64,000 bases of DNA from Roseateles oligotrophus (GTDB lineage: Bacteria; Pseudomonadota; Gammaproteobacteria; Burkholderiales; Burkholderiaceae_C), in assembly GCF_025717515.1 (NCBI RefSeq), contig NZ_JAJIRN010000003.1, positions 496,001 through 560,000 of the forward strand. The letters run 5' to 3'. This document shows, in pieces, positions 8,205 through 28,876 of the stretch (positions within the stretch are counted from its first letter, which is position 1; each line of letters opens with the position of its first letter). Both the position numbers and the translations under genes were made by a program. The notes beneath the pieces are model-generated. The model saw only the letters and a program-made list of their open reading frames with translations. It had not been told where the DNA came from and did no database searches.

Positions 8205-8207
8205 GGC

Positions 8208-9107
8208 TCAGGGTCCCGTCTTCAACCGCACATCGAGGTACTGGATCTGCATGCTGCCGATGCGGCTGCTGCCCAGGTCGAGATTGGGGCCGAGCTCGCT
8301 TTTGAAGGCGATGTTGTCGACAAGCAAGCTGCCGGCAGGCGCCTGTCCTTGGCTCGGCCAGGCCAAATTCAGATGCAAAAAGCCACCGGTCTCGGGCGTG
8401 CTGATGGCGTTGAGCAGCAGCGGCTGGCGGTCCAGATCGGCGACGCGCCAGAGGCTGCTGCCGAGTTGGCCCTCGGCCGTTGCCGCCGCCAGGTGAATGC
8501 CGCTCAGGCTGAATTGCTCGGCCTTGTCGGCACGTCCACGCGGGCGCAGCAACAGGGCGCCGACATCCAGGCGCAGGCCCAGGCCGAAGGCAATGCCCTG
8601 CTCGTTCGGGTCGGCGCTGGGCGCCAGGCTCAGCGTGCCGCCATAGCTGCGCAGGTCTTGTAGCAGCAGCGCGCCGGCCTTGAATTCCGGGGCCGTGCTG
8701 TTGCGCTTGTCGATCAGGCTCAGGTCGGCGGCAAACTGCCAGCTCAGACGGCTATTGAGATTCGACGGCTCGCTCAAGACCACGCGGTCCGGCATGCCGG
8801 CCGGCCCCTTGATCAGGCTCAGCTGATAGGGGTCGGAGAAAGTGGCGGTGAGATCGTCCGAGCGTGACAGCGCAAAGTTGGACAAACTCAGGCCGGAGCC
8901 ATCCGCCGCGCCCAGCCGCAGGGTCAGCGGGCCCTCGAGCGCGAAGCCGCGCAGATTGAAGGCGAAGCCATCGCGACCTTGGACGCGGGCCAGATCTTCG
9001 TCTGAAATCGGCGTTAGCGCCGAGGCGACGGAGACGAATGCAAGCCCAGCAAGCACCAACAGAGCCCGCATGGCTCTGATGTATGTAAGGCTGTTGGGGC
9101 GCTGCAT
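8208..9107 (-). CDS. Exported protein with leader-like motif (fourth of five)
   Basis: A 299-residue exported protein. An internal ATG at 9071 gives a more conventional signal peptide (MRALLVLAGLAFVSVASA); the ATG at 9107 lies five bases after the preceding stop, so either may be used. The mature N-terminus carries LTPISDEDLARVQGRDG, the motif shared by all five exported proteins. The rest is beta-rich, with many short strands ending in LQYLDVRLKTG. It shows no recognised domain. The motif, the exported state and the operon position argue that it is a component, not a stray gene. Confidence 0.75.
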   Translation of the reverse strand: MQRPNSLTYIRAMRALLVLAGLAFVSVASALTPISDEDLARVQGRDGFAFNLRGFALEGPLTLRLGAADGSGLSLSNFALSRSDDLTATFSDPYQLSLIKGPAGMPDRVVLSEPSNLNSRLSWQFAADLSLIDKRNSTAPEFKAGALLLQDLRSYGGTLSLAPSADPNEQGIAFGLGLRLDVGALLLRPRGRADKAEQFSLSGIHLAAATAEGQLGSSLWRVADLDRQPLLLNAISTPETGGFLHLNLAWPSQGQAPAGSLLVDNIAFKSELGPNLDLGSSRIGSMQIQYLDVRLKTGP

Positions 9108-14120: not shown

Positions 14121-16800
14121 CCCAGCCGCGCTCGCGTGCGATGAACACCGCATGCGTGCGGTTGCGCGCATCCAGCTTGTGGTTGACATTGCGCAGATGG
14201 AACTTCACCGTCGGCTCGGAGATTTGCAAGCTGTTGGCGATCTGCTTGTTCGGCATGCCCGCCGACAAGCATTGCAGGATCTGCAGCTCGCGCGGTGACA
14301 GCCCGCATTCGCTGCGGTTGACCGGCGCGGCGCTGGCGAGCAAGGCTGCCGGCACCGTGGGCTCGGCATCAAGCTGCGCCGGCGGCTGCTCATGAGCTGG
14401 CCCCAGCACATGGGCCAACACGGCCAGCAGGCGCGGCGTGGCGCCGCTGCGCAGCGCCTCCAGCATCGCGATCAGCTGCGGGCCTTCCTCCAGATAGCTG
14501 GCGCGCAGGCCCAGCTCGGCCTCGCTCAAGAGCAGTTCGCTGAGCAGGCGCAGCGCTTCGCTTTCGCGGCCAAGCCGCTGCAAGGCCTGCGCTTGAAGCA
14601 GGCCTAACTTGAGTTGGCGACGGCGTCGACCCAGGTTTTTGGCCTTCACGCGTTTGACCGAACAAGCCTCCAGCACCTGTTCAGCGCGGCCTTCGCGCAG
14701 GCCCAGGCGCAGGCCGGCCAAGGCCTGGTCCTCCACATCATTGATCGGCGTCATGCGGTCGGCGGCAAAATCCCAGGCCGCGGGCAACAGGCTCAGCCGC
14801 TCCGGCGCCATCGGGTGGCCATGATCGAATTGATGCAGCACCTGGTATTGCTGCTCCAGCCGCATCGGCGCCACGATGCGCGCCAGCCCCAGCGAGCGAC
14901 CCAGCTCGATGCCGGCATGGATCAACGCTGCGGCTTCCGCATATTGGCCGGCCCGGCAGAGCGCGCGCGACAAGATCCGGTGCGTGATCACGATGGCGTC
15001 CAGAAACACCAGCTCGCCCGACAGGTCCAGGTATTCGCGCGCCAGGCTCTCGGCCCGTTCGAACTCGCCCAGCTCGTACAGCGCACCGGCCAGGTAAACG
15101 CCTACGTAAGCGCTGCTGGCGCTGTGGCGGCCGCTGATGCGGCTCAGCTCGGCCAGAGCCGGCTCCAGCCTTGCCACCACTTCCAGCGCGCGGCCCTGGG
15201 CCAGCAAGGTGTAGGTGCTGATGCCGTAACTGAAGGTGGTGCCGTAGACACTGCCAATGCGTTTGAACAGCGTCAAGCCACGGTCCGAGCTCTCCAAGGC
15301 CGCATCAAAGCGGTGTGAACAGAGGTCGACATAGGCATGAATGCTGCGGAAGGTCGCTTCGCTCAGGCCGCTCAGGGTCAGGTCTTGATATTGTTTGAGC
15401 GCCAGCTCGCACTCGGCCAGCCGGTCCATCAAGACCAGGGACAAAGGCCCCAGCATCCGGTACTCGGCCATGCTTTGCACGCTGGGCTCTTGCTTGAGCT
15501 GCTCGGCCAGCTGCCCGGCCAGGCTGTACTGATAGCTGAAGATATGGATCCAGCACAGCGCCACGCGCAAGGTCGGGTGGCGCTTGAGGTCGGGCTCGGG
15601 CATTTGCCCCAGCCAATGCCGGCAACTGCTGATATGGCCGCGCGCCAGCGCCTGCCAGATATGGTTGACCAAGATGGCGCAGGCTTGCTCATGGTTGCCG
15701 GCGCTCAACGCATGTTCGATCGCCGCATCGGGGTCGCCCGCTTGCAAGAACCAGTCGGCCGCGCGCTGATGCAGATCGGCCAGCCAATCGGGATAGTCTT
15801 CGCGCAGCTTGCGTTGTAGAAATTCGGCAAACAGCGGGTGGTAGCGGAACTCGGTGCCGGCCGCGCCCATGCGCAGCACGAACAGGCTCTGCGCCTCCAA
15901 CTGGCGCAAGAGCGTGGCCGCATTGGCGATTTGGCCGACTGCATTGCAGATGCCGGGGCCCAATTGCTTGACGAAGCTGGTGCGCAGCAAAAAGTTCTTG
16001 ATCTCTTCGGACTGATCCCAGAACACCTCTTCATACAGATAACGGCCAATGTCGGCGGTCTGCTCGCAGAAGTTCTCGATGAAACCGGGTTTGTCGCCGC
16101 GCCCCTTGAGCGCCAGCGCGGCCAGTTGCAGGCCGGCCGGCCAGCCCTCGGTCGCGTGCAAGAGTCGGCGCACGCTGGCCGCGTCGAGCTGCAATTGATG
16201 GCGTTGGTTCAGGAATAGCTCGGCCTGCTCGAAGTCAAAACTCAGCTCCGCCATGCCGATCTGCAAGAGCCGGCCCTGCGCCTTGAGCTTGTACAAACGC
16301 AGCAGCGGTGCGTTGCGGGCGGTGATGAAGAGCTTGCAATGCGGCGGCAGCCGCTCGATCAGGCGCTGCATCAGGTCGACCGCGCGGGCCTCGCGCAGAT
16401 GATCAAAGTCGTCCAGAAAAATCGCGGTCGGCTGCTGGATGGCGGCAACGGCGTCCAGCATGTCCTGGCCCAGGCGCGAGCCGGTGTAGCGGGCGTCCAT
16501 CAAATTCGGTGCGGGCTCTCCCCGCCGGTCATCCGCATGGCTGTTGCTGGGGAGGGCGGTTTGCAGCAAGGCACAAAGCCGCTCGACATGGTTGTCATCG
16601 GCGCTCAGCTGCAACCAGGCGGTCGCAAAACCCTTGGCCCGCAGGCGCTCATGCAGGCACAGCATGGCGGTCGTCTTGCCGAAGCCGGCCGGTGCAATCG
16701 CCAGCACCAAGGACACCTCGGCGCATTCCTCCAGCCAAGCGCCGAGGTTGGGGTTGTCGACCAGATGGCGACTGAGTTGGGGAGCGACGAGTGTGGACAT
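14113..16800 (-). CDS. MalT-like LuxR-family ATP-binding transcriptional regulator
   Basis: An 895-residue regulator of the LAL/MalT class. Walker A is APAGFGKTTAM at residues 36-46, and a Walker-B-like TAIFLDDFDHL follows near residue 110. A long helical TPR-like middle comes next. The C-terminal LuxR helix-turn-helix is LSPRELQILQCLSAGMPNKQ followed by SLQISEPTVKFHLRNVNHKL. Such proteins are signal-transducing ATPases that oligomerise on inducer binding. The start is the ATG at 16800; an upstream in-frame codon at 16869 adds a Pro-rich, unlikely extension. No adjacent metabolic gene hints at the inducer. Its 3' end overlaps the 3' end of the LRR kinase gene. Confidence 0.92.
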   Translation of the reverse strand: MSTLVAPQLSRHLVDNPNLGAWLEECAEVSLVLAIAPAGFGKTTAMLCLHERLRAKGFATAWLQLSADDNHVERLCALLQTALPSNSHADDRRGEPAPNLMDARYTGSRLGQDMLDAVAAIQQPTAIFLDDFDHLREARAVDLMQRLIERLPPHCKLFITARNAPLLRLYKLKAQGRLLQIGMAELSFDFEQAELFLNQRHQLQLDAASVRRLLHATEGWPAGLQLAALALKGRGDKPGFIENFCEQTADIGRYLYEEVFWDQSEEIKNFLLRTSFVKQLGPGICNAVGQIANAATLLRQLEAQSLFVLRMGAAGTEFRYHPLFAEFLQRKLREDYPDWLADLHQRAADWFLQAGDPDAAIEHALSAGNHEQACAILVNHIWQALARGHISSCRHWLGQMPEPDLKRHPTLRVALCWIHIFSYQYSLAGQLAEQLKQEPSVQSMAEYRMLGPLSLVLMDRLAECELALKQYQDLTLSGLSEATFRSIHAYVDLCSHRFDAALESSDRGLTLFKRIGSVYGTTFSYGISTYTLLAQGRALEVVARLEPALAELSRISGRHSASSAYVGVYLAGALYELGEFERAESLAREYLDLSGELVFLDAIVITHRILSRALCRAGQYAEAAALIHAGIELGRSLGLARIVAPMRLEQQYQVLHQFDHGHPMAPERLSLLPAAWDFAADRMTPINDVEDQALAGLRLGLREGRAEQVLEACSVKRVKAKNLGRRRRQLKLGLLQAQALQRLGRESEALRLLSELLLSEAELGLRASYLEEGPQLIAMLEALRSGATPRLLAVLAHVLGPAHEQPPAQLDAEPTVPAALLASAAPVNRSECGLSPRELQILQCLSAGMPNKQIANSLQISEPTVKFHLRNVNHKLDARNRTHAVFIARERGWVS

Positions 16801-16972
16801 GGGAGCGGGCTGAGGATTGTCCGGTGTTGAAGAAAGAATGAAGGAGGGGTGGGTCTGGGGCGGCGCCAAGCGTAGCCGAACTTGGGCTGGTCGTTACTGC
16901 GTGAAAGTCCCGAGACTAGGTACTCGCGCGGTTGGAATCAGCGGCCATTGGGCGCTGAGCGAACAATGCTGT

Positions 16973-17722
16973 TCAAGCCTTGGTGCGCTGCCCTGCCAGC
17001 TCGCCCAAGCGCTGATGCGCGGCGCTGTCCCAGGCGATCGGCCATTGGTTTTTGGCCTGCAAATAATGGTGGGTGAAGACGTCCAGATAAGTCTCCAGCG
17101 TTTGCGCGGCCAGTTCTTCGCCGGCCAGGCTCAGGCACAGCGAGGCGACCTCGCTGGTGCAGAAATGGTCATCGCGGCGCGAGCGGCGCAGCTTGTATTG
17201 CGAGATCTGCGCCAGCTCCAGGCTGAGCACCGGCAGTTGGTCCAGATAAGGGCTTTTGCGGAACATCTTGCGCGCCTCGCTCCAGGTGCCGTCCAGCAAG
17301 ATGAAGAGCGGGCGCTTGGCGGTCTGCGTTTCACCAGCGTCCCACAAGGGCACGCTGCGCACCACCCGCTCGGGCGCGACGAACTCGCCCGGGAACACCA
17401 CGTAAGCCTGCCACTGCGGGTCTTTCAAAAGTTCCAGCAGCGCCGGGTCGGTCTCGGTGCGGGCCCAGCCGAAGGCAAAGGTGTCGGCCACCATATCGGC
17501 AATCAACCAGCCGGTGTTGCTGGGCTTGAGCGGTTCGACATCGGCCATCAAGAGGCAGACGCCCGCGCGCGTCGGCACCGAGGGGCGCAGGCTGCACATG
17601 CAGTGGGTCAAGGCCAAGCGACAGCCTTCGCAACGATCGCGTTTGAAGCCGCCACGGGCGAGAAAAGGTTTGCTGCTGCGGGCCAAACGGGCGGCGCGCA
17701 AAAGGGAGACGGCGTGGGGCAT
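16973..17722 (-). CDS. DTW domain protein, probable tRNA-uridine aminocarboxypropyltransferase
   Basis: A 249-residue protein of the DTW family, members of which (E. coli TapT/YfiP) transfer the 3-amino-3-carboxypropyl group of S-adenosylmethionine to uridine 47 of tRNA. Features seen: a Cys-rich zinc-like cluster (CEGCRLALTHCMC) near residue 31, PSNTGWLIADM near 67 and the signature LLDGTWSEARKM near 142, which corresponds to the D-T/G-x-W motif. The cytoplasmic location fits the absence of a signal peptide. The gene stands alone. Confidence 0.85.
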   Translation of the reverse strand: MPHAVSLLRAARLARSSKPFLARGGFKRDRCEGCRLALTHCMCSLRPSVPTRAGVCLLMADVEPLKPSNTGWLIADMVADTFAFGWARTETDPALLELLKDPQWQAYVVFPGEFVAPERVVRSVPLWDAGETQTAKRPLFILLDGTWSEARKMFRKSPYLDQLPVLSLELAQISQYKLRRSRRDDHFCTSEVASLCLSLAGEELAAQTLETYLDVFTHHYLQAKNQWPIAWDSAAHQRLGELAGQRTKA

Positions 17723-18249
17723 GGGAAAGCTAAAGGGGCGCGCGACTGCGCAAGCGGATGCGCCGGCAGTGTCGCATCCTTATGGGCTCCTTTTTTGCAA
17801 TCACCCTCCGCCAATGATAGCCAGCGAAGCGGCCATGCGACCTTGGCCGGCTGCTCGCCGCTTGCTTGAGCAGGCTTCATGGCAGCGGGTTCGCTCTGGA
17901 GCCTCAAGCGAATACGCCGCTTGAGTTGAACCGAGCATGACGGCGGAGCAAACCGCGATCTAGTGCGACGCTGCCTTTCGGCTCGCGCGCCGCCGCGAAA
18001 CTATGATCATCGGCATGAAGCCTGTGCAACGAGGGGAAGACAGCTCGCCCATGGGAATCCAAGGAGAGGTGCTCCTGACGCCGGCTCGCAGGCCCTGTTT
18101 GACCGAGCTGGGCGCTGCTCAACTTGCCCGCTCGGCACGGTCAATGAGGCGATGTGGAATATTTTTTCGCGCCGTCTCTTGCACGCTTTTGCGCCGAGCC
18201 TGGAGTGCAGTGGTGCGAAGCAACTCGGCTTTATTGATGGAGGCAGGCA
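17723..18249. other. Gene-poor stretch
   Basis: No convincing gene is seen in these 527 bases. Open frames here show no recognisable motif and irregular codon use. The bases immediately before the SGNH hydrolase start contain GGAGGCAGG, a good ribosome-binding site for that gene. The rest appears to be non-coding or decayed sequence. Confidence 0.4.
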
Positions 18250-19074
18250 ATGAACATAACCTTGATTCGCAGCGTTCTCGCTGTGGCGGTCGCCGTACTC
18301 GCGAGCCAGGCGCTGCCTGGCGCAGCCATCGCGCGCGACTTCGCCTCGACAAAGCCTACGGCCCGTGTCGAGTATTGGCAGCAGCGCCAGGCCGCCATCG
18401 CGGCTCAAACCGCTGACACCGCGAGCCTGCGCGCCGTGAAGCTCGTGTTTGTAGGTGACTCCATCACCGATTTCTGGCTCCTCGGCGACGACCCGTGGAT
18501 TCCGGGGCGTATGCACGGTCGCCGCATCTGGGATGAATCCTTCGGCGGCGCGCGACCGCAAAACCTTGCGCTGAATATCGGTATCTCGGGCGACCGCTCC
18601 GAGCACCTGCTGTTCCGAATCTTGCCAAAGGCGCAGGGTGGGCTTGGCCAACTGGACGCCGCCGAGTTGGCGCCCGAGTTCTTCGTGCTGATGGTGGGCA
18701 TCAACAACTCCTATGCGCCCGAGTCGCCGGTCGCCGACAGCGTGTTCGACGGCGTGCTGGCGGTGATGCGGTCGCTGCACGCGCGCAAGCCTGGCACGAA
18801 GCTCTTGCTGCAATCGATCCTGCCCACGTCGGAGCCCGCCAGGGACGATACGGTCGTGAGGCCCGTGAACGCGCGGCTGGCAGCGCTGGCGAAGAGCCCG
18901 GAGTTTGCGGGCTTCACCACCTGGCTCGATCTGTATCCGGCCTTCGTCGACGCCCAAGGAAAGCAGGACGCGCAGCTCTTTGTTGATGGTCTGCACCCGA
19001 GCGAAGCCGGCTACCGTATTTGGCGCGACAGGCTGCTGCCGGTCCTGGCGTCTGTCCGCGCTTCCGCGCGCTAA
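18250..19074 (+). CDS. SGNH/GDSL-family hydrolase, exported
   Basis: A 274-residue exported esterase-like enzyme with a signal peptide cleaved near AAIARD. All SGNH blocks are present: Ser in VFVGDSITDFW, Gly in LNIGISGDRSEHLL, Asn in VLMVGINNSY and the Asp-His pair in VDGLHPSEAGYRIW. The order resembles platelet-activating-factor acetylhydrolase-like and acetylxylan/rhamnogalacturonan esterase-type enzymes, so a carbohydrate or lipid ester is a plausible substrate. GGAGG lies about nine bases before the ATG. The flanking non-coding stretches on both sides could indicate an inserted gene. Confidence 0.88.
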   Translation: MNITLIRSVLAVAVAVLASQALPGAAIARDFASTKPTARVEYWQQRQAAIAAQTADTASLRAVKLVFVGDSITDFWLLGDDPWIPGRMHGRRIWDESFGGARPQNLALNIGISGDRSEHLLFRILPKAQGGLGQLDAAELAPEFFVLMVGINNSYAPESPVADSVFDGVLAVMRSLHARKPGTKLLLQSILPTSEPARDDTVVRPVNARLAALAKSPEFAGFTTWLDLYPAFVDAQGKQDAQLFVDGLHPSEAGYRIWRDRLLPVLASVRASAR

Positions 19075-19289
19075 CCGGCGAAGGAGAATCCGGTTCGTTT
19101 GCCGGCCGACACCGTGCCTGGCGCCAGGTTCACGCTCCGGAAAACAGAGCTGTCAGCGGCTCACTGGACGACGCGGTGGCTGCGATGACCGCTGTCGAGG
19201 GCGAAACAGCCATCCAGGCGCCGGACCGTCGGTCTGAACGTCAACGCGGCGTGAATGCCTGCACCTTTTAACTCGAGGGGAGGAGCGCG

Positions 19290-20312
19290 TCATTCGACAG
19301 CCGCAGACTCGTTCTCTGTGTGCCGGTCAGGCTCCGTGGTGCGGAGGATTTCGTTCAGAACGGAAGTGGCGTAATTCCCGGCGGGCAAAGAGAAGCTGAG
19401 CACCAGTTGATCGGCTTGCGGCCATTCCCATGACATGTCCACCGGGCTCGCCACCAGGGAACGGCGCGCCTGATCCAGACCGGCGTGTTCCATGCCGTCG
19501 CACAAGATCGCGTGACGTTCGGCCACACCCATTTCCAGGGCCTGCGCTTGCTCGGTGGTGATCACGCGGCCCCGTCCCCAGAGCGGCCCGGTGGGCCGGC
19601 CCGCCTCGTCCATCACGTCACCGGGCAGGGTCTTGCCCCAGAGGCCCTGCTGAATTCGCAGCGCCAGCACTTCATTGAAGACGAAGGAGCGCACCGCCGA
19701 CAGGTAGATGCCCTTCTTCTTCGGGTGGCGCACGCGGATTTCGCGCGCCAGCATGGCCCGGCCCTGTTCCACGTTGCCGCCGTCATGGCCGAAACGCTGG
19801 GCGCCGAAGTAGTTGGGCGCGCCCTGTGACGCCACGGCCTTCAGGTTGGCCTCAATGGCGGCGATGGCATCGGGGTCGCCGGTCACGCCGCGTAGCACGA
19901 TGCGGAATCGGTTGCCCTGCAGATCACCGGGGCGCAGCTTTTTCACGTGGCGAGTCTGACTCAGTACCTTGAATTCCGGGTGCTGAAGCTGGGTCAGGTC
20001 GGGCGTCTCGCCTTTGGGTAAATAGATGCTGAACCACTGGCGGGTGATGGCGTAGCGGTCCTTGAGGCCGGCATAGCCTACATCCCATTCCTGCACGCCG
20101 GCTGCCGCGGCCAGTTGCTGGGCGACGAAGGCGGTGTTGGCGCCGTTCTTTTCGATGTCCAGCCAGATATGTTCGCCCGCACCGGAGGGTGGCTGCAGCG
20201 GCAGTTCGGTCACGCTGAAATCCTCGTTGAGGACTTTCAGGGTGGCGCTGGCTCCGCTGGCGGGATAGACGTTGGGCCACTGCGGCAAGGTCTTGTATTG
20301 AGCGTCGGTCAT
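19290..20312 (-). CDS. truD: tRNA pseudouridine(13) synthase TruD
   Basis: A 340-residue TruD, which isomerises uridine 13 of tRNA-Glu to pseudouridine. The catalytic Asp85 lies in GYAGLKDRYAITRQWFS. Other family blocks are PNYFGAQRFGHDGGN, KKKGIYLSAVRSFVFNEVLA and PLWGRGRV. The length is typical. The gene is separate from psuKG, so the shared pseudouridine theme may be coincidental. Confidence 0.95.
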   Translation of the reverse strand: MTDAQYKTLPQWPNVYPASGASATLKVLNEDFSVTELPLQPPSGAGEHIWLDIEKNGANTAFVAQQLAAAAGVQEWDVGYAGLKDRYAITRQWFSIYLPKGETPDLTQLQHPEFKVLSQTRHVKKLRPGDLQGNRFRIVLRGVTGDPDAIAAIEANLKAVASQGAPNYFGAQRFGHDGGNVEQGRAMLAREIRVRHPKKKGIYLSAVRSFVFNEVLALRIQQGLWGKTLPGDVMDEAGRPTGPLWGRGRVITTEQAQALEMGVAERHAILCDGMEHAGLDQARRSLVASPVDMSWEWPQADQLVLSFSLPAGNYATSVLNEILRTTEPDRHTENESAAVE

Positions 20313-20593
20313 GAATGGTCTGATGGCAGCAAGTGTAGAGAGGGACTGGCGGTCTAGTCGGCCAGGGGCAGTCCAGACCGTGATTCTCTCCCTACCCGCA
20401 TGCCTTGACGAGCGTCAACAGATGTGGCTTCAATGGGAACAGTTGCGCGCCAGGCAACCGCCGAGTGGCGGATGTATGGGGCGGGCCGACGAACTGGTCA
20501 AGGACACCAAGTCCGTCTGCTCTTCCTTGCTTGATGACTTGATTTGCAGTCGATATTGCGCTCGGTCTTGCGCTGCTCTGCACCTGGCTCGTC

Positions 20594-20974
20594 TTAACGC
20601 GCCTTGCCTTGCGCGATAGCTTGGTTCGAATATCGGTCAGGGAACTGTTCCTTGAGCTTCTGACCCGACACGCCGTTGCCGACCACGTCGCCGCTGCGGA
20701 TCGCGTCGTCAAGTTCGGCCCGCACCTGCTCGCGTGTCTTGGCTTGAGCGATAGGCTGCTTCGGGTAGCGGTTGGGGTACAGCTCGTTGAGCTTCTGACC
20801 GGTCAAGCCGTTGCCGACGATGTCGCCGGTGCGGATGGCTTCGGCCAGTTCGGCGCGCACTTGCTCGCGGGTACGGGGGCTGTTGTTCTCGGCCAAGTCG
20901 TCAGCCGCAAACACGGCGCCAGTGGTGAGGGAGGCTAGGGCAAGTGCGATGGCGCTGAGGAAACTGCGGTTCAT
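20594..20974 (-). CDS. DUF4148-type small exported protein with duplicated motif
   Basis: A 126-residue exported protein. The start at 20974 has AAGGAT nearby upstream and gives a signal peptide ending VFAAD. The mature part is almost only two copies of a 43-residue unit: REQVRAELAEAIRTGDIVGN and REQVRAELDDAIRSGDVVGN, each continuing with G-x-S/T-G-Q-K-L-x-E and a Tyr-rich PxRY end. This fits the DUF4148 family of small periplasmic proteins common in Burkholderiales; the function is unknown. It is divergent from the LysR regulator, which could control it. Confidence 0.8.
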   Translation of the reverse strand: MNRSFLSAIALALASLTTGAVFAADDLAENNSPRTREQVRAELAEAIRTGDIVGNGLTGQKLNELYPNRYPKQPIAQAKTREQVRAELDDAIRSGDVVGNGVSGQKLKEQFPDRYSNQAIAQGKAR

Positions 20975-21162
20975 GATGGGATCCTTCTTCAACAGGTGGT
21001 AGATGAAGCTGCTAGGCACTCGACAACGTCTGTGTTCTGCGCCGCTTCGATGGACTGAACTTTAAAATTTCCACCAACGAAGAAAAATAGCCTGCGCAGA
21101 CATGCATCGTTGCTGAAACTGCAACAATCAGACCTTGCGATGACACAAGAAAAAGGCGCGTC

Positions 21163-22071
21163 ATGGATCGGTTGCTGTCGATGCGGGTGTTTCAGCGTGT
21201 GGTTGACGAAGGTGGTTTTGCGGCCGCAGCGCGACTGCTGGATCTGTCGGCATCCGTGGTCACAAGGCTGGTGGCCGATCTGGAGACCCACCTGGGAACA
21301 AGGCTGCTGCAGCGCAGCACTCGGCGCCTTGCGTTGACCGAAGCCGGTCAGGTCTACTTGAGTCGCGTCCGCCACATCTTGCAAGACATCGACGAGGCCG
21401 ACACCGCGGCGAGCCTGCAAACGCAGCAACTGGAGGGCGTGTTGCGCGTGCACGCAGCACCGACTCTGGCCAGTCATATCGTGGCACCCCTGATGCCGGG
21501 CTTTCGGCAGCTCTACCCCAAGATCGCCGTGGATCTGCTGGTGGACGGCAGCCCCAACCCACCCGTCGAGGACTACGACATCACCTTGCTGGCCACCCAC
21601 GTGCCGTTTGATGCCCATGTGATTGCACGCAAGGTGATGGAGTCGGAGGCCATCTTCGTAGCCTCGCCGGCGTACTTGCAGCAAAGGGGCAGCCCCCTGG
21701 TGCCGCAGGAACTGATGGCGCACGAGAGCATGCGACTGCGCTTTGCCGAAGAGCGTTCACGCACCTGGCGCCTGTGGCGGCAGGGCGATGAAAGCACGGC
21801 CGTGGAGGTGGCCGTGCAGCCCATGCTGTGGGTCAACCATAGCGACACCTTGCTGCGCGCCGCACTGGACGGCGCAGGCATCATCTCGGTCGCGCTGGCC
21901 CTGGTGGCGCCGCACCTGATGCGCGGCGAGCTGGTGCATGTGCTCAAGGGCTGGGTGTCCGGCCAAATGACGGTTTATGCGGCCATGCCCAGCCGCAAGT
22001 TCCTGCCGCAACGTACGCGCGTGTTTCTGGACTATCTGGTGCAACGCAGCCGTGTAGCTGGGGTCATGTAG
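21163..22071 (+). CDS. LysR-family transcriptional regulator
   Basis: A 302-residue LysR regulator. The N-terminal winged helix is FQRVVDEGGFAAAARLLDLS followed by TRLVADLETHLGTRLLQRST, and the effector-binding type-2 periplasmic fold runs from about residue 90. The typical length and the divergent DUF4148 gene 188 bases away are consistent with a classic divergent regulator-target pair, though the target is not proven. Confidence 0.94.
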   Translation: MDRLLSMRVFQRVVDEGGFAAAARLLDLSASVVTRLVADLETHLGTRLLQRSTRRLALTEAGQVYLSRVRHILQDIDEADTAASLQTQQLEGVLRVHAAPTLASHIVAPLMPGFRQLYPKIAVDLLVDGSPNPPVEDYDITLLATHVPFDAHVIARKVMESEAIFVASPAYLQQRGSPLVPQELMAHESMRLRFAEERSRTWRLWRQGDESTAVEVAVQPMLWVNHSDTLLRAALDGAGIISVALALVAPHLMRGELVHVLKGWVSGQMTVYAAMPSRKFLPQRTRVFLDYLVQRSRVAGVM

Positions 22072-22213
22072 CCGAGGATCGAGGTCGGGGCGCACATCGC
22101 TGAGCGCTCCGACCTGGGGTGTTTGACAGCAAACCATGTGTCAGGGCACGGATGAATTCTTGTGTGCGCTAAACCGGCCGCCGCGATCTTGTCCATGCGC
22201 TCGCTGATGGCTC

Positions 22214-22423
22214 TTAATCTTTGAGATCTACCCCAAGTTCATTCAGCTTCTTGGCATACGAATCCCTGCGCTTCGCAGCTTTTTCCGCTGTTTCTACGGC
22301 CGCCTGAATGGCCTTGGGGCCTTTTTGGGACAACGATTTGATTAATGCGAACTTATGGGCCGCTTCTGCCTCCGCCCTGCGGAATGTGGCAATGAGTTCG
22401 GCATGGGCAGCGAATTGATTCAC
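22214..22423 (-). CDS. Possible small protein, coiled-coil-like
   Basis: A 69-residue reading frame starting at a GTG (22423) with GAGGT four bases upstream. The product is highly helical and charged: ELIATFRRAEAEAAHKFALI, then a QKGPKAIQAAVETAEKAAKR helix and a KKLNELGVDLKD end. Composition is convincing for protein, unlike the Pro/Ser-rich frame further upstream that reads into it. It may be a genuine small gene or the surviving C-terminus of a larger one. No family is recognised. Confidence 0.4.
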   Translation of the reverse strand: MNQFAAHAELIATFRRAEAEAAHKFALIKSLSQKGPKAIQAAVETAEKAAKRRDSYAKKLNELGVDLKD

Positions 22424-22946
22424 AGAGACCTCATTGTTCAATGCACTATTTTCTGCGCTTTCTTGAGCCAAAAACCGCTGGGGACGAGGCCATGCATAAA
22501 TGGAGGATGACCGTCTCACCGAGAGAGGCAAGCGGCCACCACAACTGCTGGGCGGGGCTCTGCTGATGCTGCATGCGGCTGCCCCTACGGTTGTTCGAAA
22601 GACTGGGGTCTTGAATCTCAAGTGCGCCCCAGATTTTGACGCTCCTGTTGTCTCAAAGTTGGCGCCGTTTCGGGCGCCCTTCTTCGGTTTACTCTGCGCA
22701 TCTGAGTGACAGGAACCATGGCCTGCAGGCCGCCGTTGGTCAAAACGGTCGGCGAACTGAACGTCAGCGATGCGCCGCTTGTTCGAACTCTCGGCCTGGT
22801 GCATACCAGGGCATTTCGGGGGAGGGCTGACTGCAAGGCAGATCAGTGCCCATTGCGGGTATTCACGCTGACTGAGTGAATTTGGAGGGTGATATGGTCG
22901 CCGGTTTCGCCTCCCTGCTGTTTGCGCCAAGCGGACGCCCACACCC
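22424..22946. other. Gene-poor stretch with degenerate repeat
   Basis: No gene supported. It contains CTCTGCGCATCTGAGTGACA (22692-22711) leading into a perfect 12-base palindrome GGCCTGCAGGCC (22720-22731). The first part is repeated in diverged form at 24389. The final bases carry the promoter and ribosome-binding region of the MFS gene. Confidence 0.4.
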
Positions 22947-24197
22947 ATGAACACATCCGTACATCTGCTGCCCACCGAGCAGAAAGTTCCGCATCCGGCT
23001 TATTTCATGTTCCTGATCGCGCCCTTCGGGGCGAGCAGTGGCTTTACCGGGGTGTGCGTGGCCTATCTGCTGGTGCAGGCCCATGTCAGCGCCGAACTGA
23101 TTGCCACCATGCTCGCCTTGCACTACATCCCCCAGACCTGGAAGTTCCTGTGGGCGCCGGTGATCGACCTGACGCTGACGCGCAAGCGCTGGTTTGCAAT
23201 CGGCATGGTCTGCCTCTTGCTCAGCATGCTGGCGCTGGGCCTGCAACCGTTGAGCAGCGAGGCCATGCCGCGCATCATCGCGCTGGTGGTGACCCTCAGC
23301 GCCGCCTCCACCGTGGTAGGCATGGCGGTGGACTGTCTGATGGCCCACCAAACGCCCGAGCATGCCAAGGGCCGCGTGGCCGGCTGGTTCCAGGCCGGCA
23401 ATCTGGGCGGCAACGGCCTGGGTGGTGGCCTGGCCTTGTGGCTGATCCATTCCGGCGGCCTGAGCGTACCCGCCGGTACGGCCGTGCTGGCCTTGGTCTG
23501 CACCTTGTGCTGCCTGCCCATCTTCTGGTTGCGCGAGGATCTCTCGCAGGCCATCGTCGGCAGCGTGCGGGAGCGCCTGCGCGAGACCGGGCGCGACCTC
23601 TGGAGCGTGGTGCGTTCGCGCCGTGGCGCCTTGGCCATGCTGGTGGTGTTTCTGCCGATGGGCACCGGCGCGATGAGCAATATGTATTCAATCTTCGCCG
23701 ATAAATGGGGCGCCAGCGCCGATACCGTGGCCCTGGTCACCGGCACCATGAGCGGCCTGCTTTCGGCTGCCGGCTGCCTGCTCGGCGGCTATCTGTGCGA
23801 CCGCATGAACCGCCAGCTGGCCTATTGCCTGCTGGGCCTGGGCACCGCCGGCATCAGTGTGGCGATGGCGCTGGCACCACAGACCGAGACCCAGTTCATC
23901 GTCTGGACCAGCCTCTACGCCTTCGCCAACGGCCTGTGCTACGCCGCCTTCTCGGCCGTCACGCTGGAGGCCATCGGCAAGGGCGCCGCTGCCACCAAGT
24001 ACAACCTGATGGCCTCGCTGTCCAACACGCCGATCGGCTGGTCGACTGCGGTGTACGGCTACATCTTCAGCAAGTACGGCAGCCAGGCCACCTTGCTGAC
24101 CGAGATAGCCATGACCGTGCCGGCCATGCTGCTCTTCCTCGCTCTGCTGGGCTGGAGCCGGCGCAGTGATCGGCGCCGCAGCCTGCAGGCCGCCTGA
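22947..24197 (+). CDS. MFS transporter, AmpG/PAT-like
   Basis: A 416-residue permease with about 12 hydrophobic segments and no cleaved signal. Its layout and motifs (YIPQTWKFLWAPVIDLTLTR near residue 66, a charged loop between helices 6 and 7) fit the peptide-acetyl-CoA/AmpG type of major facilitator. The substrate is not predictable; related proteins move muropeptides or siderophores. It stands alone between two gene-poor stretches. A second permease of the same broad type is in the nag cluster (43200-44516). Confidence 0.85.
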   Translation: MNTSVHLLPTEQKVPHPAYFMFLIAPFGASSGFTGVCVAYLLVQAHVSAELIATMLALHYIPQTWKFLWAPVIDLTLTRKRWFAIGMVCLLLSMLALGLQPLSSEAMPRIIALVVTLSAASTVVGMAVDCLMAHQTPEHAKGRVAGWFQAGNLGGNGLGGGLALWLIHSGGLSVPAGTAVLALVCTLCCLPIFWLREDLSQAIVGSVRERLRETGRDLWSVVRSRRGALAMLVVFLPMGTGAMSNMYSIFADKWGASADTVALVTGTMSGLLSAAGCLLGGYLCDRMNRQLAYCLLGLGTAGISVAMALAPQTETQFIVWTSLYAFANGLCYAAFSAVTLEAIGKGAAATKYNLMASLSNTPIGWSTAVYGYIFSKYGSQATLLTEIAMTVPAMLLFLALLGWSRRSDRRRSLQAA

Positions 24198-24610
24198 GGG
24201 ATATGGTGCAGCAGCCAGCGGGCGCCTCAAGACCCCTCCGCCCCGTCTCTGTCACGGGGGCTGCCCCGGATGCGCGTTCAGGCTGGGATCGCGATCGGCC
24301 TCTCGACTGCCAATGACAACAGCCGCTGCATCGTTGAGGTAGAGGTCGGCACTTTGGGTGCCCTCAATGGGCGCCTTGTTGCCGCCTGCTCTGCATATCT
24401 GAATGACGGGAACTGGCCGGTATGGAAAGCATTCCATACCGCCCACGAGCCGGGTCTTTCACTGAGCGAACCGCTTTGAACGCACCGTTCGTCCAGGGCG
24501 CTTGTAGTTGAATCCGCGTACGCCTGGCCGTGCACTCGTGCAAGGTGCGGCGGTCCTTCTCTAAAATCCCCTATTTTCAGCTGCATGAGCGCAGGCGTCG
24601 GCTTCACCGA
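24198..24610. other. Gene-poor stretch with hairpin and degenerate repeat
   Basis: No gene supported. It holds a diverged copy (24389-24418) of the repeat at 22692 and, directly after it, a perfect hairpin GGTATGGAA (24419-24427) and TTCCATACC (24432-24440) with a four-base loop. There is no T-run after the hairpin, so it is not an obvious terminator. Confidence 0.45.
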
Positions 24611-25309
24611 ATGCAACCTATTTCCAAGCCCATACCGCCTTTCTCGCCATCCCCGCCATTCCCGCCCGAGTCGCTGTCTCGCTTGCTGCGGCAATGGAGC
24701 ATGGCGCCAGGCTCCCCGACGCCGGCTGCTGCACGGCTGGGGGCCTGGTTCGGGTGGGCGGATGCCATCGAAATCTCCCAAGTTTTGGCCACGCCCCCTG
24801 GGAGAGCTGCATCTGAGGCTGCTCGAACCGAGTCCACATATTGGGCGAGCACCGAGCTGGAGCGGCTCCAGGCCGAATTGGCGTCAAGCTTCAATCACAC
24901 CGAGCTGGCATGCGAGTCCGAATCCATATCCGATGGCGCATCGCTCACGGAGCTGCTTGTTCCCTATTTGCAGCATTTCACTCAGCAGCAGCGCGTGATC
25001 GAAAGTCGCACCTCCGCGTTCCGAATGCGTCTGCGAGCCAGCCTTGCGCGCGCCTCCGACGAACTCGCAAGGCTGGCTCAGTTGGACGACTACATCGAGC
25101 GCGCGATGGCGTCGCCCCAATTGCGCGCCATGGCTGGGCTTTCCGCCTTGCTGGAGACGCGAGCACGCAAGCACTACGCCGTCGATCCGCTGCGCTGGCG
25201 CGCCCGCCTCTGCTCAGACCTGCAGCGATTGCTGCGGGCCGAGCTGGACCAAAAACTTCAACCCGTGCTGGGCCTCATTGAGGCCTTGAGCACCCACATT
25301 CCCCCATGA
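24611..25309 (+). CDS. DUF3348-like protein, first gene of motor-like operon
   Basis: A 232-residue cytoplasmic protein that I assign from memory to DUF3348, a Burkholderiales family of unknown function. It has a Pro-rich N-terminus, a region RLGAWFGWADAIEISQVLAT near residue 42, and a long helical C-terminal half (QQQRVIESRTSAFRMRLRAS, LRWRARLCSDLQRLLRAELD). The ATG at 24611 is preferred to an upstream GTG; neither has a strong ribosome-binding site. Its TGA overlaps the ATG of the next gene (ATGA), so it is translationally coupled to the ZorA-like protein and probably works with it. Confidence 0.78.
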   Translation: MQPISKPIPPFSPSPPFPPESLSRLLRQWSMAPGSPTPAAARLGAWFGWADAIEISQVLATPPGRAASEAARTESTYWASTELERLQAELASSFNHTELACESESISDGASLTELLVPYLQHFTQQQRVIESRTSAFRMRLRASLARASDELARLAQLDDYIERAMASPQLRAMAGLSALLETRARKHYAVDPLRWRARLCSDLQRLLRAELDQKLQPVLGLIEALSTHIPP

Positions 25310-27612
25310 ACCGATCTCTCAACGCCCTCTACCCCATCGCCATGGCTGCCGGTCTGGCCGGCATAGCCGGCGCCGGCTTGGCCGCCTCAAGGAACCACCC
25401 CGTCGCAATGGCCATGGCGGGGCTGATTGCTGTTTTCTTTGCCATCGGCGCGTGGGAGCTGGCGACCTTTCGCCGCGACAGCCGAGGTTTGGCAGCGGCC
25501 ACAGAGAGTGAGGTGCCCGACGATTGGATAGCCTCTGTGCCCCCAGCTTTGCGCGGCGCTGTGCAGATGCGTCTGGATGGCCAGCGCGTCGGCCTCCCAG
25601 GCTTGGCATTGGCGCCGGCGCTTGCAGGCTTGCTGGTGCTGCTGGGCATGCTCGGCACCTTCATTGGCCTGGTCATCACCTTGAGCAGCACGGCCAGCGC
25701 ACTGGGCGCCTCCGCTGACCTGGCCGCTTTGCGTTCAGCGCTGGGTGCCCCGATCCAGGGCCTTGGCCTGGCCTTCAGTGCCAGCGTGGCTGGCGTCGCC
25801 GGCTCGGCCATGTTGGGTCTGATGGTGGCCCTCGCTCGCAGGGAGCGCGCGGCCGCTGGCGCGCTGCTGGATGGCGCAATTTTGGGGCGGCTGCGCCCTA
25901 TGACGTCTGCACATCGGCGGGAGCTCGAGCAGCAAGCTATTGCTTCGGCTGCGATCGAGCGCGACAAGGCAAAGCAGCTTGAGATGGTCGCCCAGCTTCA
26001 ACAGTTCACCGAGCGCATTGCTGAACAACTTGCTGCGCAGAACAGCCAATTCCACGGCGAAACCAGCAAAGCCTATGCCGCCTTGGCCAGCAATGTCGAC
26101 GCCACCTTGCGCAACAGCCTTGCGCAAGCCGCGCGGGAGGCAGGCGCTGCCATTCAACCCGCCGCAACGGCGGCGATGGCGGCAATAGCACGCGAAGCTG
26201 CAGCCCTGCATGAGCGCGTCGGAAACACAGTAACCGATCAACTGAGCGCAGTCAGCAGCCGCTTCGAGGCGGGGGCCGAGCGCATCGCACATCAACATGG
26301 AGAAGCCGCGCAGGCGCAATCCGCAGCGCTGCGCCAGCAGCGAGAGCTGGCGCTGCAGCTGCTGGAAGATGCCGGCGCGGCCTCGCAGCGCGCGATGGAA
26401 CTCCAGGGGCAGCGTTGGGCCTCGGATTCGCAAGCGACGCTCACGGCGCTGGACAATATGGCCACCCGCCAGCAAGCCGCGCAGGCTGATGCAGATCAAG
26501 CACGCTGGGCCTCGCTGCAAGATCAGCTCGGCGCGCTCGCCGGGCAACAAGCCTCAGCACGAGAGCTTGTTGCGCAAACCGCCCAGCGGTTCGCCGAGCA
26601 GACGCAGGCCTTGCTGGACCGGGTCTCGGATGGCCATACCCGTCAACTCGCCTTGCTGGCCGAGCGCGACGCTCAGCGCCGCACCGAGGCCTTGGCCGAT
26701 GCGACTGCCATCAGCCAACAGCGCGAAGGCGTCGAGCGGCTGCTGGCCCTGCAGCGCGAGGAAGCCTTGCAACTGCAGCGCGACAGCGCAAGCCGCGTGC
26801 AGCAGGCCTTGACCGAGATCACCGGCTTATGTGCCGAGCAGACGCAGGCCGGCGTCAGCGGCCTGGCCGATGCATTCACGCGTTTGCAGGCCAGCCAGCG
26901 AACCCATGACGCGCAGCAGCTTGCGGCATGGCGCGCTGAGCTGGCCTCGATTGGAGCCACGCAGTTGCAGCAGCAGCAAGTACTGGCCGATGACCTATTG
27001 GCGAACACGCGCAGCTTGGTGACACAGGCCGAGGCCACTTCTCAACGGACGCTGGCCGAGGCCGGCGCAGTGCTGCAAGCCGCTGGTGCAGCGCCACGCG
27101 CTGCCGTAGAGGTCGTCGTCGCACTGCGCGAGCAGCTCGCCCAAAGTCAGGCCCAGGACCGCGCGGCTCTGCTTGAGCGGTCCGAACTGATGGGGACGGT
27201 ATCGACGTTGCTCGCCTCGCTGCAGCAAGCCGCGGGCGAGCAGCGCGCCGCGATTGATTCGCTGGTGGATAGATCGGCCATTCAGATCGAGGCCTTGGGT
27301 CAGCGCTTCACGACGCTTGCCGAGGCCTCGGGTCAGGCCCTTGCCGATGCGGCCACAAATCTGGCGGCCAGCGCTGCCGACGTCGCCAGCGTGGGCGAAG
27401 GCTTCGGCGAGGCGATTGAGCAATTCCAGGGCGCTAACGCCCAACTCGTGCAGCACCTGGCTGCGCTGGAGGAGCGCATGTCGGCATCGATCACGCGCAG
27501 CGATGACCAACTGGGCTACTACGTGGCCCAGGCGCGCGAAGTCATCGACCTCTGCCTGGGCTCGCAGAAGCAAATCCTGGATGCGCTGCAAGGCGCCGCG
27601 GCCCATGGATGA
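25306..27612 (+). CDS. DUF802 protein: MotA/TolQ/ZorA-like stator subunit with giant tail
   Basis: A 768-residue protein. Four hydrophobic segments are visible: residues about 8-27, 33-53, 100-127 and 150-177. The third and fourth (LLGMLGTFIGLVITL and QGLGLAFSASVAGVAGSAML) match the pore-forming helices of MotA/TolQ/ExbB-type proton channels and most resemble ZorA. Residues 180-768 are a long, Ala/Gln/Glu-rich, heptad-like coiled-coil tail with repeated EQTQA segments and no further membrane span. ZorA has such an intracellular tail. DUF802 is my recollection of the family name. It is coupled to DUF3348 by ATGA and overlaps the OmpA-like gene by eight bases. Confidence 0.82.
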   Translation: MNRSLNALYPIAMAAGLAGIAGAGLAASRNHPVAMAMAGLIAVFFAIGAWELATFRRDSRGLAAATESEVPDDWIASVPPALRGAVQMRLDGQRVGLPGLALAPALAGLLVLLGMLGTFIGLVITLSSTASALGASADLAALRSALGAPIQGLGLAFSASVAGVAGSAMLGLMVALARRERAAAGALLDGAILGRLRPMTSAHRRELEQQAIASAAIERDKAKQLEMVAQLQQFTERIAEQLAAQNSQFHGETSKAYAALASNVDATLRNSLAQAAREAGAAIQPAATAAMAAIAREAAALHERVGNTVTDQLSAVSSRFEAGAERIAHQHGEAAQAQSAALRQQRELALQLLEDAGAASQRAMELQGQRWASDSQATLTALDNMATRQQAAQADADQARWASLQDQLGALAGQQASARELVAQTAQRFAEQTQALLDRVSDGHTRQLALLAERDAQRRTEALADATAISQQREGVERLLALQREEALQLQRDSASRVQQALTEITGLCAEQTQAGVSGLADAFTRLQASQRTHDAQQLAAWRAELASIGATQLQQQQVLADDLLANTRSLVTQAEATSQRTLAEAGAVLQAAGAAPRAAVEVVVALREQLAQSQAQDRAALLERSELMGTVSTLLASLQQAAGEQRAAIDSLVDRSAIQIEALGQRFTTLAEASGQALADAATNLAASAADVASVGEGFGEAIEQFQGANAQLVQHLAALEERMSASITRSDDQLGYYVAQAREVIDLCLGSQKQILDALQGAAAHG

Positions 27613-28264
27613 GCAACTGGAGATCGAGCATGAAAGCACTGCCGCTCCCGCTTGGGCGGCTTTTGGCGACTTGATGGCCGGTGTGCTGGGCGCGTTCGTG
27701 CTGGTGCTTGCCGCGGCCCTGGTTGGGCAGCTGGATCTCGCCACCCGATTGCAAGCCGAAGTGCAGCAGCGCATGGCCGAGCAAAGTCGCCGGGAAGCGC
27801 TGGAGCGCGCCTTGGCCGGGCCGCTTGCGGACGGCCGTATCACGCTGGTGGAAGGTCGAATCGGCATCAACAGTGCGGTGCTTTTTGCGACGGGTTCGGA
27901 CCAACTGCTCGCCGAGGGCCGTGCGCTGCTAGGTGCCTTGGCAACGCCGCTGCGCACCTACCTCGCGCAGCGCGATGAGATCCTGATGGTCAGCGGTTTC
28001 ACCGATGACCGGGGCGTCGTGGCGGGCATGCAGTTCGCCGACAACTGGGATCTGTCTGCCAGGCGGGCGCTCAACGTGACGCGGGCCTTGTTGGCGGACG
28101 GTCTTCCACCCGATGCGGTTTTTTCTGCCGCATTCGGCTCACAGCAACCGGTTGCGCCCAACGACACGGCGGCCGGGCGTGCGCTCAATCGTCGCGTAGA
28201 AATCGCCCCAACACCGCGGCCACGGAGAGCAGCTGCACCGGCCGTGTCTGCGTCTGCACCGTGA
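27605..28264 (+). CDS. OmpA/MotB/ZorB-like stator subunit
   Basis: A 219-residue protein with one transmembrane helix (residues 19-41) preceded by an acidic cytoplasmic tail. The helix starts WAAFGDLMAGVLGAFVLVL; Asp22 sits where MotB, TolR and ZorB carry their proton-binding Asp. After a coiled-coil linker, residues 85-205 form an OmpA-type peptidoglycan-binding domain (FATGSDQLLAEGRALL, SGFTDDRG, NWDLSARRALNVTRALL, NRRVEI). The start at 27605 overlaps the DUF802 gene and its stop overlaps the next start as GTGA. This is a complete MotB-type architecture. Confidence 0.88.
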   Translation: MDEQLEIEHESTAAPAWAAFGDLMAGVLGAFVLVLAAALVGQLDLATRLQAEVQQRMAEQSRREALERALAGPLADGRITLVEGRIGINSAVLFATGSDQLLAEGRALLGALATPLRTYLAQRDEILMVSGFTDDRGVVAGMQFADNWDLSARRALNVTRALLADGLPPDAVFSAAFGSQQPVAPNDTAAGRALNRRVEIAPTPRPRRAAAPAVSASAP

Positions 28265-28794
28265 GCCTCATCGAGGATCCTGTCAATTGGGTCGCTGCGC
28301 AGCGAGCAGACCCGGTGCGCCGGCGCATGCTGCACGCACTCGCCCTGCGTGCGGCAGCCCAGCCTCAAGGCGCGCTGCGAGACAAGCTGATTGTGGCAAT
28401 ACGGCAGCGCGCGTCGAGAGCGCCGTTGGTGCATCAGAAGCAGCACTATCCTGCGCTCGGCAATCCCTTGGCCGAATTGCTCGCCTTGCTGGAGTTTGAT
28501 GCGAGCCCAGAGTTGCGCCAAGTGCGCATCCACGAAAACACCTGGCGCGAGCTGCGCGTCGCACGAAGCATTGCCGACCTCCATGCGCCGGTCGCCGGGC
28601 ATCTGGGGCCACTCAATGGCCAGGCCTTGGCGACGCGCGTGCTCCAGCAAATTCAGCTGCTGGCGCCGGACTATTTGCACAGGCTGCTCGCGCAGATGGA
28701 CGCGATCGCCGCCTTGGAGCTGATGCAGGCTGCAGGTGAGGCCGAAAAACCCGCGCGAACAGCGAAGAAGAAGGCGCCTGAACGGCGTCGGTGA
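28261..28794 (+). CDS. DUF2894-like protein, last gene of motor-like operon
   Basis: A 177-residue cytoplasmic protein starting at a GTG that overlaps the previous stop. I assign it from memory to DUF2894. It is helical and basic, with RRMLHALALRAAAQPQGALR near residue 20, a conserved-looking block LAELLALLEFD and a Lys/Arg-rich tail (ARTAKKKAPERRR). Its consistent companionship with DUF802, OmpA and DUF3348 suggests an accessory or regulatory role at the cytoplasmic end of the motor; no biochemical function is known to me. Confidence 0.78.
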   Translation: MSLIEDPVNWVAAQRADPVRRRMLHALALRAAAQPQGALRDKLIVAIRQRASRAPLVHQKQHYPALGNPLAELLALLEFDASPELRQVRIHENTWRELRVARSIADLHAPVAGHLGPLNGQALATRVLQQIQLLAPDYLHRLLAQMDAIAALELMQAAGEAEKPARTAKKKAPERRR

Positions 28795-28796
28795 CA

Positions 28797-28876
28797 TCCG
28801 ACCTCTATTCCTTTCGGTAGGTCAGAATGGGGGTCAATTTTTCCGACCTCTATTCCATGTTTCCGAACTCTATTCC
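28797..28876. repeat. Three 15-base direct repeats at the gph start
   Basis: TCCGACCTCTATTCC occurs at 28797-28811 and 28842-28856, and with one change (TCCGAACTCTATTCC) at 28862-28876. The first copy begins two bases after the DUF2894 stop codon. The third lies inside the predicted gph coding sequence. Confidence 0.85.

Follow-up and report, generated by a model that had tools for sequence, protein, structure and literature searches.

Zorya types I and II reportedly go back to Doron and colleagues in 2018. Their ZorA and ZorB proteins have been solved as motors of five ZorA and two ZorB, and both types need the motor Asp of ZorB, peptidoglycan binding and the ZorA tail; in type II, ZorAB recruits ZorE, which is a nickase (PMC11890865). 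A third type has been defined as zor motor genes flanked by genes for DUF3348 and DUF2894 proteins, with 6,401 pairs counted (Payne et al., 2021; PMC8565338). Here we describe a four-gene operon that clearly belongs to type III by its sequence. It lies in a stretch of 64,000 nucleotides from Roseateles oligotrophus (contig NZ_JAJIRN010000003.1, positions 496,001 to 560,000), which we call the window and whose own numbering is used throughout.

In E. coli, the type III system of Stenotrophomonas nitritireducens reduced the plating of at least one phage and protected liquid cultures against PVP-SE1 at a multiplicity of infection below 0.1, and the two type III partners were proposed to be regulators (PMC8565338). 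A structural paper of 2025 treats type III in its introduction and in its account of distribution (PMC11890865). What we say of the cited papers, here and below, refers to passages of their text. The role of the Zorya motor in stopping phage is unsettled and type III seems little studied; in the passages on Zorya type III, DUF802 or the partner DUFs, a tested type III mechanism was not found.

A Zorya Type III Operon

The operon holds a ZorA3 and a ZorB3 with an OmpA domain, and the zorAB pair is flanked by genes for DUF3348 and DUF2894 proteins (Table 1), which makes it a member of a described defence type. The four open reading frames (ORFs) run in the same direction and overlap by 4, 8 and 4 nucleotides at the DUF3348/ZorA, ZorA/ZorB and ZorB/DUF2894 junctions. 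The initial annotation, made from the letters of the sequence, had described this start-stop coupling, and most of what it said of the products was borne out: the paired pore helices of the ZorA-like protein and its tail of some 590 residues, Asp22 heading a single membrane helix before an OmpA domain in its partner, the two flanking DUF families, and the ZorA-ZorB plan as a whole. It was also right that ZorC, ZorD and ZorE are absent beside the operon. Eight neighbouring genes gave only weak matches to regulators and hydrolases in PADLOC, and ten gave neither a helicase nor a nuclease in Pfam, three of them being without any match; the ZorC plus ZorD or the ZorE that characterize types I and II were found by neither scan at the locus. 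The neighbours are LysR, major facilitator superfamily (MFS), gph and trp genes.

Two labels in that annotation had to be given up. It called the ZorA-like protein DUF802, and Pfam assigns no family to the window ZorA at E ≤ 1. DUF802 (PF05650) is a 53-residue unit of the ZorA tail, with two to five matched stretches in each of five of the six relatives scanned, for which the label is kept; the sixth, from Paucibacter (locus L099), has no match, like the window protein. It also allowed that the system might be undescribed, which is ruled out: PADLOC-DB has named models matching all four proteins, and DUF3348, ZorAB and DUF2894 together are the published type III definition (PMC8565338). The names ZorF and ZorG are swapped between sources, DUF3348 being ZorF and DUF2894 ZorG in the text of the 2021 paper (PMC8565338), and ZorG3 and ZorF3, respectively, in PADLOC-DB 2.0.0 (models PDLC00652-00658).

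A ZorB alignment search gave 493 relatives, of which the best 80 were named, so the named set leans to near kin. The same four-gene order is found in 74 of these 80 loci; five of the other six are cut by contig ends and one (L100) is a truncated copy. Because the order recurs in so many loci, the arrangement is not a chance one. An earlier and less sensitive blastp pass had found all four genes in 24 of 29 loci, the window among them, with DUF3348 missing in L059, L081 and L090, and DUF2894 in L087 and L089. The ATG at 24611 and a TAAAAT box before it are common to the five leaders aligned (the window and four congeners). A scan with the sigma-70 consensus found no promoter-like site at the box, and a promoter there is a tentative suggestion from the leader alignment.

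Table 1. Features of the operon and its right boundary, in window coordinates.
Feature	Position	Strand	Evidence
DUF3348 protein (ZorF in Payne 2021; ZorG3 in PADLOC-DB), 232 aa	24611..25309	+	PF11828 2.6e-28; PDLC00658 1e-42
ZorA of type III, 768 aa: membrane head, shaft, conserved tip	25306..27612	+	PDLC00647 6.7e-172, residues 1-765; head profile vs 8vvn_C 1.1e-6
ZorB of type III, 219 aa, one membrane helix and OmpA-type peptidoglycan-binding domain	27605..28264	+	PDLC00651 1.4e-91; PF00691 2.2e-17
DUF2894 protein (ZorG in Payne 2021; ZorF3 in PADLOC-DB), 177 aa, GTG start, basic C-terminal end	28261..28794	+	PF11445 1.6e-14; PDLC00652 3.7e-23
ZorA pore helices, residues 106-176, including T118 and S160	25621..25833	+	conservation; alignment to 8vvn_C
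ZorA shaft, residues 230-640, length-variable in the family	25993..27225	+	11/3-residue hydrophobic repeat
ZorA conserved tip, residues 731-756	27496..27573	+	conservation in 74 ZorA; motif in 24/24 aligned
ZorB Asp22 codon	27668..27670	+	conservation 81/81
TAAAAT box in operon leader, candidate -10 element	24562..24567	+	invariant in 5/5 leaders
Right junction of inserted unit with gph leader; TCCG common to both sides	28797..28800	.	unit ends and gph leaders of congeners compared

The Motor Core

All 81 ZorB sequences (the 80 named loci and the window) have Trp17, Phe20, Gly21, Asp22, Leu23 and Met24; conservation of Asp22 had been set beforehand as a test of the stator idea, and it held. 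Among the 29 ZorB of the blastp-pass loci, Asp22 is present in every one and Gly21 is replaced by Ala in three (L087, L088, L091). Thr118 and Ser160 of ZorA are invariant in 74 of 74 sequences, a set that leaves out seven of the 80 loci, six without DUF3348 and one (L174) with a short ZorA frame. A profile built from 29 ZorA heads (28 of the 80 loci and the window) had a single solved chain below E 0.1, namely 8vvn_C, the ZorA of a Shewanella type I system, over whose Thr and Ser T118 and S160 align. From the alignment, ZorA would present a ring of Ser and Thr to the ZorB Asp, and by homology to types I and II a ZorA5:ZorB2 assembly is expected. Pfam gave no MotA_ExbB match for the window ZorA. 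The window ZorB stayed below the curated cut-offs of the named MotB models and passed that of PRK09040, a "hypothetical protein" model, with 297 bits (cut-off 194).

The ZorA Shaft and Its Conserved Tip

ZorA ranges from 595 to 1045 residues across the family, and its middle tail is variable in length, blocks of 385-512 having 30-81% gaps. In the tails of the 74 ZorA, taken from residue 210 to the last 140 residues, the spacing of large hydrophobic residues peaks at 3.65-3.70 residues (11/3), with a periodicity power of 10-12 vs. about 1 in shuffled tails; the peak is 4-5 when Ala and Cys are counted as well. A repeat of 11/3 points to a right-handed coiled coil. The periodicity, flat in the shuffled control, argues for the long helical tail that is typical of Zorya. 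A stepwise change of tail length, by 7 or 11 residues at a time, was looked for and not seen: such differences are found in 33 and 30 of 293 pairs, near the chance expectation (42 and 27).

The end of the tail is nearly invariant. The mean frequency of the commonest residue in the 74 ZorA is 0.91 over residues 731-756 and 0.95 over 731-749, compared with 0.87 and 0.86 in the pore helices and 0.64 in the shaft. The motif RSD[DE]QL[GA]YYVAQA[RK]E occurs in 24 of 24 aligned sequences (23 loci and the window); in all 74 its single-letter positions are 96-100% conserved, and positions where two letters alternate less so. If the tail were one straight helix, the tip would by our estimate be some 88 nm from the membrane. 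A profile of the tip had no match of note among solved chains (best E 0.024), 8vvn_C included. Because the tip is nearly invariant, exceeding even the pore helices, it may be the docking place of the type III partners.

The Partner Proteins

Both partners are predicted to be all-helical. AlphaFold2 gives the DUF3348 protein as a long helical bundle (predicted local distance difference test, pLDDT, 90.0; predicted template modelling score, pTM, 0.83) and the DUF2894 protein as helices of uncertain packing (pLDDT 80.7, pTM 0.43). The last 25 residues of the DUF2894 protein carry a net charge of +4 in the window and a median of +5 among 80 relatives (at least +4 in 69 of the 80; range -2 to +8), a basic end that hints at contact with nucleic acid. 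No nuclease domain was named in either partner by Pfam or PADLOC.

The ratio of non-synonymous to synonymous substitution rates (dN/dS) between the window and four congeners is 0.23-0.42 for DUF3348, 0.25-0.31 for DUF2894, 0.16-0.19 for ZorA and 0.04-0.09 for ZorB, thus at most 0.42 in 16 of 16 comparisons. The controls gave 0.08 for gph (two congeners) and 0.05-0.14 for trpE (three congeners). As their values lie above those of ZorA, ZorB and the controls, the partners are the fast-changing part of the unit. The DUF3348 gene of congener G009 contains an element of about 80 bases (L060, about 8130-8216) that leaves the frame open and gives a longer product (259 aa); this element recurs in G000, G001 and G007.

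Distribution

The named relatives are from Paucibacter, Roseateles, Pelomonas, Rubrivivax, Variovorax, Cupriavidus, Ralstonia, Paraburkholderia, Dyella, Luteimonas, Stenotrophomonas, Xanthomonas and others. A ZorA match was found in 8 of 18 genomes of the window's genus, six at 71-100% identity and two at about 40%. In a sample of the family, 93 of the 299 genomes had one, spread over 53 of the 141 genera; the figure of 93 may err either way because scoring was limited to three candidates per genome and included weak matches (E to 2e-4). A full-length ZorB3 match of at least 303 bits occurs in 19 of 398 genomes sampled from the phylum, all 19 in the window's class; the next match scores 94 bits, which is the level of other OmpA-type domains. 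Eight genomes out of 369 in the class sample carry DUF3348, and none of 14 control genomes does. In Ralstonia solanacearum the system is named as highly conserved, being in at least 90% of the species' genomes (PMC13064858).

Viral contigs yielded no relative (36 candidate stretches, none confirmed), and in eight phage records the matches were partial, none spanning 80% of ZorB. Matches on plasmids come from 27 records, none shorter than 366 kb; 20 are predicted to be non-mobilizable and seven mobilizable.

A Variable Chromosomal Site

The unit extends from about 24440-24546 to 28800 of the window. All 11 congener loci retrieved around gph keep the series gph, chalcone isomerase-like gene, trpE, trpG, trpD, and all 11 lack the unit within their 20 kb. 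Congener G007, fetched apart, is an exception: its gph, next to which the unit stands in the other orientation, is about 29 kb from trpE. Since gph and the unit there (contig C173, L058 and beyond) lie beyond the block matching window 36-46.5 kb, either gph has moved away from trpE or the draft assembly (360 contigs) is wrong at this place. Unit and gph are on different contigs in G009, G008 and G013.

The five congeners compared are collinear with the window at about 1.2-12.7 kb and at 36-46.5 kb, with gaps in G008 and G013, and are not so at 46.5-54 kb. The distance from a LuxR-type regulator gene (14113-16869) to gph is about 1.1 kb in G008, 4.8 kb in G013, 11-12 kb in the window and 43 kb in G009; the interval between them (window 16870-28796) is therefore variable, and it is not the only one that is. 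Ten ORFs scanned in the G009 interval include one bSEFIR defence gene, a urease accessory gene and a molybdopterin enzyme.

Over 73 named loci the flanks fall into 54 site clusters, a comparison whose core-gene control covers the window's own genus. Both flanks are shared by 41 of 216 within-genus pairs (26 in Stenotrophomonas, nine in Roseateles-Pelomonas-Paucibacter) and one flank by 51 more. Transposon-like carriage was rejected: when the upstream and downstream flanks (3.5 kb) of 71 loci were compared, a long direct repeat turned up at one locus (L099) and short matches at two more (41 and 37 bases; L123, L165). The long repeat, in Paucibacter sp. Y2R2-4, consists of two dienelactone hydrolase genes in the same orientation that enclose the unit (L099 5673-6563 and 11296-12195) and are 81% identical in DNA over 899 bases, which may be a trace of entry through homologous recombination.

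Three copies of TCCGACCTCTATTCC, one with a mismatch, lie directly upstream of gph (28797-28876). As a mobile end the repeat was rejected: its pattern (23 bases, up to three mismatches) occurs at two places genome-wide, both here near gph, and similar repeats were seen by eye in the gph leaders of G009, G001 and G007 (none in G008, G013, G010 and G005). We take it to belong to gph. Another repeated element, between the LysR and MFS genes (22717-22865), has many copies in G009, G001 and G007.

A defence-island setting was considered: a PADLOC scan of 104 of 110 possible immediate neighbours of 55 loci found at most three members per family among the 25 of 57 families listed; it dropped 18 same-site loci, excluded proteins above 900 aa and used genes called by a simple codon-composition rule. 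The Pfam families listed for neighbours are mostly metabolic or regulatory. In G001 a truncated second copy (contig C43; L100 9364-11181, L059 8617-10494) consists of the last part of ZorA, ZorB and DUF2894, with a truD-like gene abutting the unit's right end; the other copy of that genome is split over contigs C18 and C9.

Descent

The DNA of the unit is 89-90% identical to the window in the long matches of G007, G009 and G001, vs. 80-87% for long flank matches. In G008 it is 82% (flanks mostly 75-79%) and in G013 72% (flanks mostly 74-81%). Synonymous divergence (dS) of the unit from G007 and G009 is 0.23-0.33, beside 1.06-1.08 for gph and 0.40 for trpE of G009; from G008 it is 0.44-0.64 (trpE 0.57) and from G013 1.16-1.52 (trpE 0.67). 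These values favour exchange among the nearest relatives, are neutral for G008 and speak against exchange in the case of G013.

In a tree of ZorA heads and ZorB (72 rows; a quick search, with 24 of 69 inner branches starred), the rows that we take from their genus names to be Xanthomonadales all lie on one side of one branch (99*). The tree needs 26 label changes for its 23 genus labels, the minimum possible being 22; the exceptions to host grouping are Rubrivivax, Rhizobacter, one Roseateles metagenome-assembled genome and Cupriavidus basilensis. Since dS and identity favour exchange among nearest relatives while the tree largely follows host genera, the unit appears to change place within the chromosome and to pass between members of a genus, but seldom from one genus to another.

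A Model and Its Alternatives

The explanation we favour, with a probability of roughly 0.72, is that the operon encodes a chromosomal anti-phage motor of Zorya type III in which both partners dock at the tip of the tail. By homology, five ZorA around two ZorB would form an ion-driven motor in the inner membrane, with Asp22 of ZorB working against the Thr118/Ser160 ring of ZorA. The OmpA domain of ZorB would hold on to peptidoglycan once infection perturbs the envelope. Together, the five ZorA tails would form a long right-handed shaft of species-dependent length, and its nearly invariant tip would dock the DUF3348 and DUF2894 proteins. Motor action could then pass through the shaft to the tip complex and end in action on or near incoming DNA. 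Of this, the sequences themselves show type III membership, an ion site and a tip that are conserved, the periodicity of the shaft, tight linkage of the four genes and the rapid change of the partners. The 5:2 assembly, peptidoglycan binding, the need for the tail and, from type II, recruitment of a nicking effector are all borrowed from the type I/II literature; anti-phage activity, known for a relative, is predicted for the window operon, and docking at the tip and action on DNA are steps that we infer. In a bolder version, which we consider rather unlikely, type III would dispense with a nuclease of its own: the motor would drive a tail whose length is particular to the species, two helical adaptors held at its fixed tip, one of them basic-ended, would clamp incoming phage DNA mechanically or pass it to a host enzyme, and the unit would be exchanged mainly within genera by recombination in chromosomal flanks and not by phages or plasmids. 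Some observations count against an anti-phage motor with a docking tip. A tree that follows hosts is unlike what a freely mobile defence cassette would leave, 206 of the 299 genomes in the family sample gave no ZorA match, and the argument for docking comes from conservation.

ZorAB could instead be a gated ion channel that de-energises the infected cell, with DUF3348 and DUF2894 as sensors or regulators of the gate and nothing acting on DNA. Payne et al. (2021) mention that ZorAB had earlier been suggested to act as a proton channel in abortive infection, and suggest that ZorF and ZorG regulate ZorAB in place of ZorC, ZorD and ZorE (PMC8565338); that neither partner has a named nuclease domain and that both are predicted to be all-helical suit such a leak. 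A leak, however, needs no conserved tip so far from the membrane, the basic end of DUF2894 hints at nucleic acid, and the type I/II structural paper, in which ZorE was shown to be a nickase, concludes that Zorya recruits nuclease complexes (PMC11890865). We find the leak doubtful, if the less so of the alternatives. It is unlikely that the motor does housekeeping work in the envelope of Burkholderiales and Xanthomonadales, sensing or remodelling the wall, and that defence upon overexpression in E. coli is a side effect. This reading would agree with the host-tracking tree, with the lack of relatives in viral contigs and of near-full-length matches in phages, with the large size of all the plasmids, with the mostly metabolic or regulatory neighbours listed and with the high conservation in R. 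solanacearum (PMC13064858). Yet a match is lacking in 10 of 18 genomes of the genus as well as in most of the family sample, the site differs between close relatives, the partners change fast, and a relative protected E. coli (PMC8565338). The initial annotation had left housekeeping and defence side by side; patchy presence and a variable site fit defence better, while the host-following tree keeps the choice unsettled. That the window holds a decayed or silent copy retained by chance is very improbable. The truncated second copy in G001 tells us that such units do decay, but in the window the four frames are open, dN/dS is at most 0.42 throughout, and the ion-site and tip residues are intact.

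Comparison with Known Systems

Flagellar MotAB, TolQR and ExbBD share with the window the plan of an ion-driven motor and an Asp heading the helix of the B subunit, and MotB also the OmpA domain. The ten neighbouring genes scanned include no flagellar, Tol or Ton genes, however, the window ZorB fails the named MotB models, and the head profile matches only a ZorA. Zorya types I and II are closer, having the same ZorA/ZorB motor core, ZorB Asp, peptidoglycan-binding domain and long ZorA tail. They differ in bringing ZorC/ZorD or ZorE where the window locus has DUF3348 and DUF2894; moreover, the ZorA1 and ZorA2 models align with the window ZorA3 over residues 89-317 at most, and the tip profile misses 8vvn_C.

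With type III, as defined by Payne et al. (2021) and as ZorA3/ZorB3/ZorF3/ZorG3 in PADLOC-DB, the window shares all four genes and their domain make-up; its ZorA and that of one Paucibacter relative differ from those of five other relatives in having no Pfam DUF802 match. The conserved tip, the shaft repeat and the variability of the site are not among the type III descriptions in the published passages. The tip and the contrast between site and descent may thus be the parts that a specialist does not know, next to a mechanism that we propose by inference. Type III appears to be not simply a gene of mobile islands, being patchy and variable in site and yet largely following its hosts in descent, and its nearly invariant tail tip, tied to two partner families, offers a small set of residues and contacts for testing.

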